A DNA stretch of 48,656 nucleotides from Candidatus Diapherotrites archaeon LH_S9. GTDB lineage: Archaea > B1Sed10-29 > WALL01 > JAGXON01. The stretch is taken from assembly GCA_023659865.1 (NCBI GenBank), contig JAGXON010000006.1:1-48656 (forward strand), written 5' to 3'. How positions within the stretch are numbered: the stretch's first letter is position 1; each line of letters opens with the position of its first letter. Below the pieces are notes generated by a model that was not told the origin of the DNA, searched no databases, and worked only from the letters and a program-made list of their open reading frames with translations. The position numbers were made by a program, and so were the translations under genes. Below are positions 7,709-11,856 of this stretch, in pieces.

Positions 7709-8155
7709 CTAATCTTCTTCTTCTTTTATTTCGGAGACCACTATGCTTGGCCTGGACTCCAGTATCCCGTTTATGTTGTTTAATTTGTCTTCCGTGAATT
7801 CTTTGAAGTGCGGGACGTCCTGGCAGTATGCTTTTGCGATTATGTCGTAAACCCCCATACTTACAAAAACGTCTTCAATCGGCTCTGAATCAAGTAGTTT
7901 TTCTGCAACTTCGTTCACTTTATTTGACCTGGTTTTCAAGAAAATGAATGCTGAAACGGATTTCCCTAGCTTTTCTCTGTCAAGTACTGCAGTAAATTTC
8001 TTTATTACGCCTTTATCGACTAACTTGTCGACTCTTTTCTTTATGGCAACGTCGGAGAAACCGAACTGACGCGCTATCTCTGAGAAAGACATCCTAGCAT
8101 CCTTTTTAAGTAATTTCAGTATCTTTCGATCGATCTCGTCGATTTCTTCTCCCAT
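7709..8155 (-). CDS. Lrp/AsnC-family transcriptional regulator
   Basis: A 148-residue protein with an N-terminal winged helix-turn-helix (IDRKILKLLKKDARMSFSEI, then IAxQFG-type turn) and a C-terminal RAM ligand-binding domain (VFVSMGVYDIIAKAY). It starts at ATG 8155 with GAGG about 6 nt upstream. It is divergent from the NrdD-like gene, with 50 bp between start codons holding a TATA box (8172-8180) for the latter; autoregulation or control of that gene is possible. It heads the minus-strand operon that continues to elp3. Confidence 0.9.
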   Translation of the reverse strand: MGEEIDEIDRKILKLLKKDARMSFSEIARQFGFSDVAIKKRVDKLVDKGVIKKFTAVLDREKLGKSVSAFIFLKTRSNKVNEVAEKLLDSEPIEDVFVSMGVYDIIAKAYCQDVPHFKEFTEDKLNNINGILESRPSIVVSEIKEEED

Positions 8156-8171
8156 GCTACCTCAGTGGAAA

Positions 8172-8180
8172 TTTTATAAA
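8172..8180 (+). promoter_or_regulatory. TATA box of the NrdD-like gene
   Basis: TTTTATAAA centred 30 bp before the ATG at 8206, which predicts an almost leaderless transcript. No ribosome binding site precedes the ATG. Confidence 0.6.
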
Positions 8181-8205
8181 TCTTTAGGTATAAAAAACAG
8201 TTGTA

Positions 8206-10146
8206 ATGAATGTCAGCAAAGTAGTGCAGGATAAATGTAAGAAGGCAGGAATCTCTTTCTGGCTTGCAAGCGAAGTCGCACTAGAACTGGAGGACGAGAT
8301 AGGGCCCGAGCTAACAGAAGAAGAGACAAACAACAGGATAATAAGCAAATTAAGGGAGAAGAATGAGGAAGAAGGAAGAAAATTCGAGAACTATCACAAC
8401 ATTTACGTCAGGACTTCAAAAGGATTGATCGAATCATTCGATAAAGAAAAGATACTTGAATCCATGCTGAAAGAAACCACTTTATCTAAAACAGTTTGCG
8501 AAGAAATATCAAACGAAGTAGAATCAGACGTAAGACGACTAGGCCTCAGGAAAATCAGTGCACCAGCAATCCGGGAAATGGTGAACTTCAAGCTCTTAGA
8601 AAGAAAGTACAAGAAAGCAAAAGACGATTACGCAAGAATTGGTTTACCCGTATACGATGTGAAACAAGCCATAAAACAGCCACCGAACCCTGAAGCGGTT
8701 CACAAGAAATTTGGAGACGCTGTATCAAAAGAATACACTTTAATCCAGTTACTCCCTGAAGAAACATCGAACGCTCATCTAACAGGTTTGATACACATCC
8801 ATGACCTAGCCTACTTCCCTACGAGACCAACTTCGCTTCAGAATGACTTCAGATGGTTCCTTCAAAAAGGCGTTGCGACTGAAGGAGCCGGAAAGCACAA
8901 CGCCGTTACCGGGCCAGCAAAACATTTGGATGTAGCCGTATCGCACGCAGTGAGAATACTTATTTCAGGAGAAACTCATTTGTCTGGCGGGCAATCATTC
9001 GACTTTTTCAATCTTTTCCTAGCACCTTACACTATAAATTCTTCAGATAAAGAGCTTGAGCAAGCAGTTCAAACGTTCATTTACGAACTGAACCAGATCT
9101 ACGCTGTTAAAGGAGGACAGATTCCGAACACCTCTCTGAACTTTGACTTAGAGGCTCCGGAGTTCCTGAAGAAAGAGAAAGCGATTCTGCCAGGTAATAA
9201 GGTAAGTCAGGACACTTACCAGGATTACGAAAAGGAAGCCATAAGGATCTTGAACACTTTCCTGAGGGTGATGAGTAAAGGAGACTTTGAAGGAAACGAG
9301 TTCGCGGTCCCAAAAATATGTTTGAAGGTCAAGGAAGGAGCAATACCGCTTCACACTGAAAAAAGAATAAAAGAATTCCTAGAAACATCACCTCTCCACA
9401 TAATAAATCTTAGGAACAATAAAATGAAAGACAACACAAACATGGTGGCCCCAAGTCAGCTGATTCCTTCAAGAAAACGTAGATGGTTCCAGACACTAAG
9501 AACAGGGGTACTGCAGGAAGTTTCGATAAATCTTCCGAGAATAGCTTTCGAGTCCAGAGAAGACACAGAGTTTTTCAGCAAGCTCGATAAATCTCTGGAG
9601 ATGAGCGAGAAAGCCTGCAAGAAAAAACAAGAGATAATAAGGAAAAGACTTCAAAAAAACAAATCGCTTCCGTTCCTCACACAGGAGTATAAGGGAGAAG
9701 AATACTATTCTCTTGAAAACTCTCACAGCACGATAAACCTAGTGGGAATGGATAACACAATCCAGGAGTACAAGGGAAAAGACCTCACAGAAAAAGAAGG
9801 AAAAGAATTTGCCGAAAAAATACTCAACTACACGACTAAAAAACTTGATAACTTCAACAAAGAAAAAAACACGAGACTGCTGCTAGGTAATGTGAAAGCA
9901 GAGAAAGCAAGCAAGAGATTCAGCAAACTGAACCAAAAAAGATTCGGAGTGAAAGAAGTGTTCCCAAGAAAAGGCTTCAGCCACAAAAAAACAACTGGAT
10001 GGGTTGACAACGAGATAAAACTCCAGAAATACTGCTTTGGCGGATCAAAACTCGAAATAACACCCGGAGAAGACCCAGTAGAAACCATTTACCAGACGAT
10101 CGACAAAAAACCATTATGCTTTAAAACCCAAAAAAAATCAAAGTGA
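8206..10146 (+). CDS. NrdD-like (class III ribonucleotide reductase family) protein lacking catalytic residues
   Basis: The 646-residue chain has an N-terminal ATP-cone (about 66-145) and then the class III reductase barrel: HIHDL at 197-201, GGQSFDFFNLFLAPY at about 261-275, and LRTGVLQEVSINLPRI at 431-446. Functional NrdD needs an entry-strand Cys, a finger-loop Cys pair just before the RTG-INL motif, a four-Cys zinc site and a C-terminal glycyl-radical motif (R-x-x-G-Y). Here the first is Ser (RPTSLQND, Ser210), the finger loop reads NMVAPSQLI with no Cys, and the protein stops at residue 646 before both the zinc site and the radical glycine. The rest of the fold is well kept with no internal stop, so it is under selection. 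I infer a pseudoenzyme, perhaps a nucleotide sensor; it cannot be a normal class III reductase. Confidence 0.85.
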   Translation: MNVSKVVQDKCKKAGISFWLASEVALELEDEIGPELTEEETNNRIISKLREKNEEEGRKFENYHNIYVRTSKGLIESFDKEKILESMLKETTLSKTVCEEISNEVESDVRRLGLRKISAPAIREMVNFKLLERKYKKAKDDYARIGLPVYDVKQAIKQPPNPEAVHKKFGDAVSKEYTLIQLLPEETSNAHLTGLIHIHDLAYFPTRPTSLQNDFRWFLQKGVATEGAGKHNAVTGPAKHLDVAVSHAVRILISGETHLSGGQSFDFFNLFLAPYTINSSDKELEQAVQTFIYELNQIYAVKGGQIPNTSLNFDLEAPEFLKKEKAILPGNKVSQDTYQDYEKEAIRILNTFLRVMSKGDFEGNEFAVPKICLKVKEGAIPLHTEKRIKEFLETSPLHIINLRNNKMKDNTNMVAPSQLIPSRKRRWFQTLRTGVLQEVSINLPRIAFESREDTEFFSKLDKSLEMSEKACKKKQEIIRKRLQKNKSLPFLTQEYKGEEYYSLENSHSTINLVGMDNTIQEYKGKDLTEKEGKEFAEKILNYTTKKLDNFNKEKNTRLLLGNVKAEKASKRFSKLNQKRFGVKEVFPRKGFSHKKTTGWVDNEIKLQKYCFGGSKLEITPGEDPVETIYQTIDKKPLCFKTQKKSK

Positions 10147-10150
10147 TAAC

Positions 10151-10636
10151 ATGGAAAAAAGAATACCTCTAGACGATTACTTCATGGAAATCGCCCACAT
10201 AATCTCAAAAAGATCCACATGCCTACGACACAAAGTAGGAGCAATAATAACAAAAGACAAACAGATAATAACCACAGGATACAACGGAGCAGCACGAGGA
10301 ATGCCTCACTGCCTAGACGTCGGTTGCCTGAGGGACGAAAAAAACATTCCTTCAGGAGAAAGACACGAAATCTGCAGAGCCGTTCACGCCGAACAGAACG
10401 CCATAATACAGGCAGCTAGACAAGGAGCATCCATAAAAGGAGGAACCCTTTACTGCACAATCAATCCTTGTATTATATGTTCAAAAATGATAGTTAATGC
10501 AGGCATAACAAGAGTAGTTTACGAAGAAGAGTACAGCGGAGAACAAAAAGGCATAAAATTCCTTGAAGACGCAGGAGTAAAAGTAGAAAACTACGAAACA
10601 GACAGAATGGACCGATACACTACTGAAAAATTCTAA
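10151..10636 (+). CDS. Deoxycytidylate (dCMP) deaminase
   Basis: Converts dCMP to dUMP, feeding thymidylate synthesis. The 161-residue protein has the zinc-dependent cytidine-deaminase fold signature: HAEQNAI (His ligand and catalytic Glu) and PCIICSKMI (two Cys ligands). An insert with CLDVGCLRDE and further His/Cys is typical of the dCMP deaminase branch (ComEB-like). It lies 4 nt after the NrdD-like gene, and GTGATAAC before the ATG serves as ribosome binding site, so the two are one transcription unit. Together with the dUTPase at 42075-42566 it makes a dUMP supply route. Confidence 0.92.
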   Translation: MEKRIPLDDYFMEIAHIISKRSTCLRHKVGAIITKDKQIITTGYNGAARGMPHCLDVGCLRDEKNIPSGERHEICRAVHAEQNAIIQAARQGASIKGGTLYCTINPCIICSKMIVNAGITRVVYEEEYSGEQKGIKFLEDAGVKVENYETDRMDRYTTEKF

Positions 10637-10642
10637 GAAAAA

Positions 10643-10652
10643 TTTTATAAAT
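10643..10652 (+). promoter_or_regulatory. TATA box in front of a noncoding hairpin pair
   Basis: TTTTATAAAT lies just after the dCMP deaminase stop and ends about 22 nt before the first hairpin, the usual archaeal TATA-to-start distance. No gene starts within 500 bp, which favours an RNA product. Confidence 0.45.
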
Positions 10653-10671
10653 AAGAAAGAACACCTTATAT

Positions 10672-10726
10672 AACGCAGTCTTTTAGACTGCTGGGAGTGT
10701 ATTCTCCTCTCCCCTACACTCCCAAA
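10672..10726 (+). ncRNA. Candidate structured RNA with two back-to-back hairpins
   Basis: Hairpin 1 is GCAGTC-TTTTA-GACTGC (10675-10691), a perfect 6-bp stem. Hairpin 2 follows at once: a perfect 10-bp stem TGGGAGTGTA/TACACTCCCA (10692-10701 with 10715-10724) closing a 13-nt pyrimidine loop. They are preceded by a TATA box at the right distance. There is no T-run after the stem on this strand, so a simple intrinsic terminator is less likely. Family unknown. Confidence 0.45.
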
Positions 10727-10961
10727 AATTAATCTTCCAGAAACCAATCTCTCCAACCAAAATCAAGTTAGGAAATCTAACCAAAAACCTTTTAAATGAA
10801 GTTTGAATTAAGGAATATGCAGGGAGTGATTTGAAATCCAAAGCAAAAAGTGATTACAAGTAACAAATACTAACAAAGGTCTTCACCCCTAACACCCAGG
10901 TACAACGGCACCTCGAAAAAAACAACACGATTGACCTCCATCCCTCACCCACCCAAATCCC

Positions 10962-11157: not shown

Positions 11158-11856
11158 ATGGAGATAGCGGACTACAAAAAACAGTCAAGGAACTACTGGA
11201 AAGGAAAAATAAGTTTTGTCATTTTCGCGAACAAGTGCAACTACAATTGCCCTTACTGCTTTGTTCCTGAAGTCGTGAAAGGAAAAGAACCAATCGAAAC
11301 CAAGAAAATAATGAAAGAACTCCATAGAGTAAGAGCTGGAGTAGACGCAATAGTTATCACTGGTGGAGAACCATGCTTATACAAAGACCTGCCTATACTG
11401 GCAAAAAAGTTCAGTATGAAGAACCTGCCAGTCAAAGTATGGACCAATGGAACCAGGCCAAGCGTGCTGAAGAACCTTGTTAAGAGAAAAGTAGTGGACT
11501 TTATAGCAATGGATTTGAAGGCACCGTTCCAAAAATACGGAGAAATAACTGGAACAAAGGAACCGGAAACAAAAAAAGTGAGGAAAAGCAAAAAGTTTCT
11601 TGAACAATCAGAAATCGATCACGAGTTCGTGACCACATGGAGCCCTGACCTAACAGAAAAAGACGTAGTAGAAACAGGTAACGAAGTAAAAACTAGGTGG
11701 ATTCTCCAAAAATTCGAGCCAAAAAACTGTTTGAACAAAGAGTACTGTAAAAAAGAATCAAAAAGCCCGGAAGAAATGGAGAAAATCGCTAGAAAAGTTA
11801 AAAACCCGGAAGAAGTTAGAATAAGAGCGGGTAGGATGGAGAAAGTGATAGAATGA
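11158..11856 (+). CDS. NrdG-like radical SAM activating enzyme
   Basis: A 232-residue radical SAM protein with the iron-sulfur motif KCNYNCPYCF (Cx3Cx2C) and the SAM-binding ITGGEPCLYKDL segment. Its layout matches the anaerobic ribonucleotide reductase activating protein family (NrdG2/PflA-like), which installs the glycyl radical on NrdD. The NrdD-like protein 1 kb upstream has no glycyl-radical motif, so a partner elsewhere or another role must be considered. Its end overlaps the thpR start by 4 nt (ATGA). The C-terminal third, with two more Cys (KNCLNKEYCKK), is less typical. Confidence 0.85.
   Translation: MEIADYKKQSRNYWKGKISFVIFANKCNYNCPYCFVPEVVKGKEPIETKKIMKELHRVRAGVDAIVITGGEPCLYKDLPILAKKFSMKNLPVKVWTNGTRPSVLKNLVKRKVVDFIAMDLKAPFQKYGEITGTKEPETKKVRKSKKFLEQSEIDHEFVTTWSPDLTEKDVVETGNEVKTRWILQKFEPKNCLNKEYCKKESKSPEEMEKIARKVKNPEEVRIRAGRMEKVIE

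Follow-up and report, generated by a model that had tools for sequence, protein, structure and literature searches.

What can a protein with the fold of a class III ribonucleotide reductase (RNR) do once every catalytic element of that enzyme has gone? The question is raised by an open reading frame at positions 8206-10146, on the forward strand, of the 48,656-nucleotide stretch of archaeal DNA that was analysed and is called the window here. The window is contig C35 of a 671 kb genome that is 66% complete. The frame starts with ATG at 8206, stops with TGA at 10144-10146 and encodes 646 amino acids, as the initial annotation had it; its product is referred to as pseudo-NrdD. The Pfam NRDD profile matches residues 156-587 (8671-9966, forward strand; 264 bits, E 3e-78, profile positions 4-434 of 562), a remnant of the reductase barrel, and the Pfam ATP-cone profile matches residues 66-138 (8401-8619, forward strand; 34.3 bits against a cut-off of 25.8). 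Both domains are thus as recognisable as that annotation stated. Against NCBIfam TIGR02487 (NrdD) the protein scores 247 bits, under the equivalog cut-off of 326. Residues 1-60 (8206-8385, forward strand) are a remnant of a first ATP-cone, as judged from an alignment with dual-cone NrdDs and from a model of the N-terminal part: the helices are present, the first strands are absent, and upstream of residue 65 the model holds helices only. A full-length AlphaFold model, built on a four-sequence alignment, was poor (pLDDT 54, pTM 0.34); in a Foldseek search with it class III RNRs rank first at a TM of about 0.19, which is not structural proof.

In the NrdD of P. copri, Cys416 at the tip of the finger loop is the radical initiator and Cys171 on strand 1 is the second catalytic Cys (PMC11226230). 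Both are absent from pseudo-NrdD when it is aligned with intact NrdDs. Ser210 (codon 8833-8835, forward strand) was initially annotated as replacing the "entry Cys"; the Ser does stand in a Cys column, but the residue replaced is the strand-1 Cys and not the radical initiator. The finger loop, NTNMVAPSQLIP (9427-9483, forward strand), has no Cys, the thiyl Cys included, and the chain stops at 10144-10146 ahead of the zinc site and the glycyl-radical motif, so that both are missing. The alignment bears out the annotation on the loop and on the short chain, and every loss it listed is real, but the list overlooked one: the NxN flap, which is the substrate cover in NrdD, is deleted at 8677-8688 (forward strand). 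This deletion occurs in every member of the pseudo-NrdD clade, and the flap is present in nearly all other NrdDs compared.

The protein might still be an active reductase if it received a glycyl-radical domain in trans, on the pattern of the phylum's split canonical NrdDs, and such domains do occur as separate small ORFs in several of the genomes studied. However, every clade member lacks the NxN flap and the two catalytic Cys, which makes this reading highly improbable. An NRDD search of the own genome, together with inspection of the locus, found no glycyl tail near the pseudo-NrdD gene; the sole tail found lies on contig C37, with a canonical NrdD. Since it was found only there, the 3' frameshift restoring the tail that had been raised at the outset was rejected; restoration of catalysis by a trans tail was rejected as well.

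The split canonical NrdDs were seen in the same genome (L053 7856-10052, contig C37) and at L041 5301-7418, L043 4207-6336, L054, L055 and L063. The large ORF of these genes stops close to the zinc site or at it, and the glycyl-radical motif (e.g., MCNEEVEVYSRVVGYFRP...) is encoded by a second, separate ORF of 47-61 aa that has a start codon of its own. A second type places the motif on a separate protein of 88-107 aa with a Cys-rich, zinc-finger-like N-terminus (L059 2738-3002 and L060 3012-3335; separate tail matches in G062, G041, G071, G074 and G019). A trans-acting glycyl-radical domain may be common in these genomes, and no description of a split glycyl-radical NrdD was found in the open-access literature searched. 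One canonical NrdD (L063 2373-5396, G015) is also interrupted, precisely at the Cys pair of the finger loop, by an intein-like insert of about 300 aa.

Searches of the class and of the phylum covered the same 19 genomes each time, many of them draft metagenome assemblies. Orthologues of pseudo-NrdD are present in 17 of the 19; all lack Cys at the catalytic positions, and none has a tail where its sequence extends that far. All ten other genomes of the order carry one at 49-58% identity, in frames that are open without stops and about 655 aa long unless cut at contig ends, and six further genomes of the class carry divergent versions. Between orthologues dN is 0.18-0.28 and dS is 3.8 or saturated; in the G005/G007 comparison, pseudoenzyme and canonical NrdD have similar dN/dS. 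So many joint catalytic losses in a metagenome-assembled genome could point to a decaying pseudogene or an assembly artefact, a reading to which we give next to no credence in view of the open frames in ten further genomes of the order, the low dN/dS and the conserved promoter layout. By these comparisons, pseudo-NrdD is not encoded by a pseudogene and did not arise through sequencing error. The initial annotation had judged sequencing error unlikely and had proposed a pseudoenzyme of long standing that selection maintains, one possible role being that of a nucleotide sensor acting via the ATP-cone. The former judgement is upheld by the same losses in orthologues of 17 of 19 genomes and by a dN far below dS; the latter agrees with the phylum-wide clade, the low dN/dS, the invariant cone residues and the helix-turn-helix (HTH) fusions in relatives described below. 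Its suggested search for a clade with the same losses found them in all close homologues, and no intact homologue above 58% identity was found, where it had named a level above 80%.

The pseudo-NrdD clade is monophyletic (SH-aLRT 100), and the canonical NrdDs encoded by these genomes fall outside it. The clade is nested within a 29-row group of archaeal NrdDs with dual ATP-cones (SH-aLRT 99), and descent of pseudo-NrdD from such proteins is clear. Elsewhere in the group, L114 and L147 are intact, L121 and L127 are partly decayed, and L106, L107, L134-L136, L138, L139, L142, L143 and L146 are fully decayed. Separate partial decay is seen in L101, which has lost both Cys and retained the tail, and in family f37, which has lost the flap, the finger-loop Cys and the tail and retained the strand-1 Cys. 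The status calls of distant copies come from one added alignment, and long branches disturb the tree built from all decayed copies together, which does not separate one loss from several.

The part that purifying selection has kept most strictly is the ATP-cone with its link to the barrel. Mean identity is 73% in the cone, 53% in the C-terminal barrel and 37% at the C-terminus. Residues V68-R69-T70-S71, F78, I83, E90, R123, R144, G146 and P148 show little or no variation among pseudo, decayed, fused and intact proteins, and the R144-x-G-x-P element sits just past the cone. Within the order the HIHD and GGQS motifs of the barrel are retained and the finger loop is rewritten with conserved residues of its own, whereas class-level and other archaeal copies have not retained the barrel motifs and have retained the cone. 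For the N-terminal model (pLDDT 79), NrdR cones were the top fold match by probability (0.98), but with an E-value of 0.23, and no match in that fold search had an E-value below 0.1. The ATP-cones of NrdD bind ATP or dATP, which changes the oligomeric state between dimer and tetramer (PMC11226230), and in NrdR an ATP-cone governs transcription (PMC9110341). We infer that the cone of pseudo-NrdD likewise binds ATP or dATP, with a change of oligomer.

The conserved partner of the gene lies upstream. A divergent Lrp/AsnC-type transcription factor is encoded at 7709-8155 on the reverse strand, with HTH_AsnC-type (PF13404) and AsnC_trans_reg (PF01037) domains above cut-off. The two genes share an intergenic region of 50 bp (8156-8205) with a TATA-like TTTTATAAAT at 8172-8181; the pseudo-NrdD start codon follows about 25 nt past it, which is consistent with a leaderless message of the archaeal type. 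The Lrp gene stands head-to-head with pseudo-NrdD in 16 of the 17 phylum genomes, mostly across a gap of 14-92 bp. In the seventeenth (G018), a TnpB-like ORF lies between pseudo-NrdD and an Lrp fragment at the contig end; this ORF (L050 8499-9752) is of IS605 type. The chance that a random neighbour is a divergent Lrp gene is roughly 0.1-0.5% per genome, a rough figure for genomes that are related. Paired genomes usually hold several Lrp-like genes, and in those searched the adjacent one is the top whole-genome match to a profile of the phylum Lrps, except in G040, where the Lrp ORF is frame-broken, and in G018, with its fragment.

The same arrangement with decayed NrdD genes was found in 13 sampled genomes from seven other archaeal families (f11, f29, f32, f40, f44, f47 and f50), and a divergent Lrp beside an intact dual-cone NrdD in 2 of 17 sampled genomes (G069 and G117). 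Outside the phylum the numbers are small when counted by family: about 7 of 11 with decayed copies are paired, and 2 of 8 with intact ones. As G069 and G117 are intact yet paired, the Lrp may at first have been an ordinary regulator of an RNR gene. Neither an Lrp neighbour nor a fused HTH accompanies some of the decayed copies (f37, f43 and f55). Several relatives carry an intergenic palindrome, GGTTCG-N5-CGAACC or close variants, which is plausibly an Lrp site; it was not seen in the intergenic region of the window itself. A genome scan for this palindrome gave matches at control level and none recognised at RNR promoters, so that only autoregulation of the pair is suggested by it. The layout is probably autoregulated, and archaeal Lrps often regulate a divergent neighbour as well as themselves (PMC2995911).

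In other lineages, dead NrdDs are themselves fused to DNA-binding domains. L110 (G021) and L064 (G014) combine an ArsR-like winged helix, an ATP-cone and a decayed NrdD (Pfam HTH_20, ATP-cone and NRDD), with a zinc-ribbon-like motif at the terminus, and L065 (G016) joins an IclR-like winged helix to a degenerate NrdD barrel (HTH_IclR 9e-8; profile comparison E 2.6e-6). No Lrp gene was found beside L110; the flanks of L064 and L065 are short or were read separately. Working RNR genes are often close by. In 4 of 4 genomes of family f13 class II nrdJ immediately follows a fusion-type gene in the same orientation (the fusion sequence was read in G021 only), the fusion gene of G014 is convergent with nrdJ, a decayed NrdD gene overlaps nrdJ in three genomes of family f37, and G070 has nrdJ close by in the same orientation. 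A canonical nrdD adjoins pseudo-nrdD in G005, G007 and G012. Dead NrdDs thus occur together with DNA-binding domains and with live RNR genes.

Besides pseudo-NrdD, the phylum genomes that carry it encode either a class II RNR or an intact NrdD. Six of them (G001, G003, G008, G011, G014 and G018) have a class II RNR and no canonical NrdD and still retain the gene, which weakens the idea of a dedicated class III RNR subunit. No NrdR was found in the phylum: four weak TIGR00244 matches (18-21 bits against a cut-off of 124.65) cover ATP-cone regions of NrdD-like genes, among them pseudo-NrdD of the window, at 18.9 bits over the cone only.

Downstream, a dCMP deaminase gene (10151-10636, forward strand; Pfam) starts 4 nt past the pseudo-NrdD stop, as first annotated, and is probably co-transcribed here. 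The accompanying suggestion of a new system formed with this deaminase did not hold, since the gene is directly downstream in the window genome only; as a conserved partner it was rejected, and the Lrp gene that does have this place had gone unmentioned. In G009 the start of a dCTP-deaminase-like gene lies downstream of pseudo-NrdD (L045, about 4770 to the contig end), a second deoxynucleotide link. Past the deaminase gene, in the unannotated stretch 10641-10730, a TATA-like box accompanies two strong hairpins that lie side by side (71 nt, about -25 kcal/mol); this is a possible small RNA, for which Rfam gave no match. Further on, an NrdG2-like radical SAM protein (11158-11856, forward strand; NCBIfam and tree) forms a branch apart from canonical NrdG2s and is likely the former activase of the dead NrdD. 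Its orthologues in G005 and G007 have lost the CX3CX2C motif, which fits an activase of a dead NrdD that is decaying or retained for binding alone. At L041 3753-4313 and L043 2274-2864, NrdG2-like genes without this iron-sulphur motif lie near an intact NrdG2 and may encode a pseudo-activase.

Taking the sequence data on the locus and its relatives together, we consider that pseudo-NrdD is probably a former dual-ATP-cone class III RNR that lost catalysis and became a nucleotide-sensing regulator working with Lrp, an archaeal analogue of NrdR. ATP or dATP would occupy its cone, and at high dATP or ATP the oligomeric state would shift; this state would then control the divergent Lrp, or Lrp and pseudo-NrdD together on DNA, at the shared promoter. 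The pair would be autoregulated by nucleotide levels, and the genes of dNTP synthesis would probably be regulated as well. In other lineages the fused winged helix takes the place of the Lrp pairing.

Two other roles have to be weighed against this one. Pseudo-NrdD could be an allosteric partner of working RNRs that regulates their activity in mixed oligomers with NrdD or NrdJ, Lrp merely setting its expression. The adjoining nrdD genes in three genomes, the overlap with nrdJ in f37 and the regulation of NrdD by ATP-cones through dimer-tetramer changes (PMC11226230) fit such a role. But pseudo-NrdD persists in genomes whose sole RNR is class II and in others that have class III alone, enzymes which dimerise differently, the winged-helix fusions indicate DNA, and linkage to Lrp is far more constant than linkage to RNR genes; we regard it as possible but unlikely. 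We are more doubtful still that pseudo-NrdD is an ordinary target, regulated by its neighbour as archaeal Lrps often do (PMC2995911), with an unrelated role such as nucleotide binding or buffering or a new reaction in the barrel. Conservation of new residues in the rewritten finger loop, and of the HIHD and GGQS motifs within the order, would suit a new reaction or binding role, whereas the loss of barrel motifs from more distant copies that keep the cone, and the replacement of Lrp by a fused winged helix, would not.

The nucleotide-sensing regulator bears on a wider problem. NrdR is rare in archaea (PMC9110341), which raises the question by what means most of them adjust RNR expression to their nucleotide pools; pseudo-NrdD is a concrete candidate regulator with a defined partner and a defined promoter. 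The broader proposal, on which we are evenly divided, is that in archaea without NrdR, dead proteins derived from RNR serve as transcriptional nucleotide sensors, either paired with a dedicated Lrp or as winged-helix fusions. An enzyme would here have turned into a regulator of its own pathway, with intermediates surviving in a graded series from the intact L114 through the partly decayed L127, L121 and L101 to a pure sensor and a DNA-binding fusion. As many archaeal genes that match NrdD are not reductases, censuses of RNR classes by Pfam or BLAST overcount class III. In the open-access papers searched in full text, no description of such dead NrdD proteins was found.

Among known systems, pseudo-NrdD resembles NrdD (TIGR02487, PF13597; P. 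copri 8p23, S. thermophilus 9d3x) in its fold, by sequence, and in its N-terminal ATP-cone, and differs in lacking the strand-1 Cys, the finger-loop Cys, the NxN flap and the zinc/glycyl-radical domain, all of which NrdD has. An ATP-cone outside the catalytic subunit is also known from NrdB, but there the RNR works and the cone belongs to its radical-generating subunit (PMC5794259). The divergent Lrp has both defining Pfam domains and the probably autoregulated layout of archaeal Lrp/AsnC regulators, whose tabulated effectors are amino acids (PMC2995911); what differs here is its stable linkage to an RNR-derived protein. The closest likeness in proposed logic is to NrdR (TIGR00244), the bacterial RNR repressor, in which an ATP-cone reads ATP or dATP and controls the transcription of nucleotide genes. 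NrdR joins its cone to a Zn-ribbon DNA-binding domain, whereas pseudo-NrdD has no Zn-ribbon and carries an NrdD barrel, and its DNA binding would come from a separate Lrp or, in relatives, from a fused winged helix.
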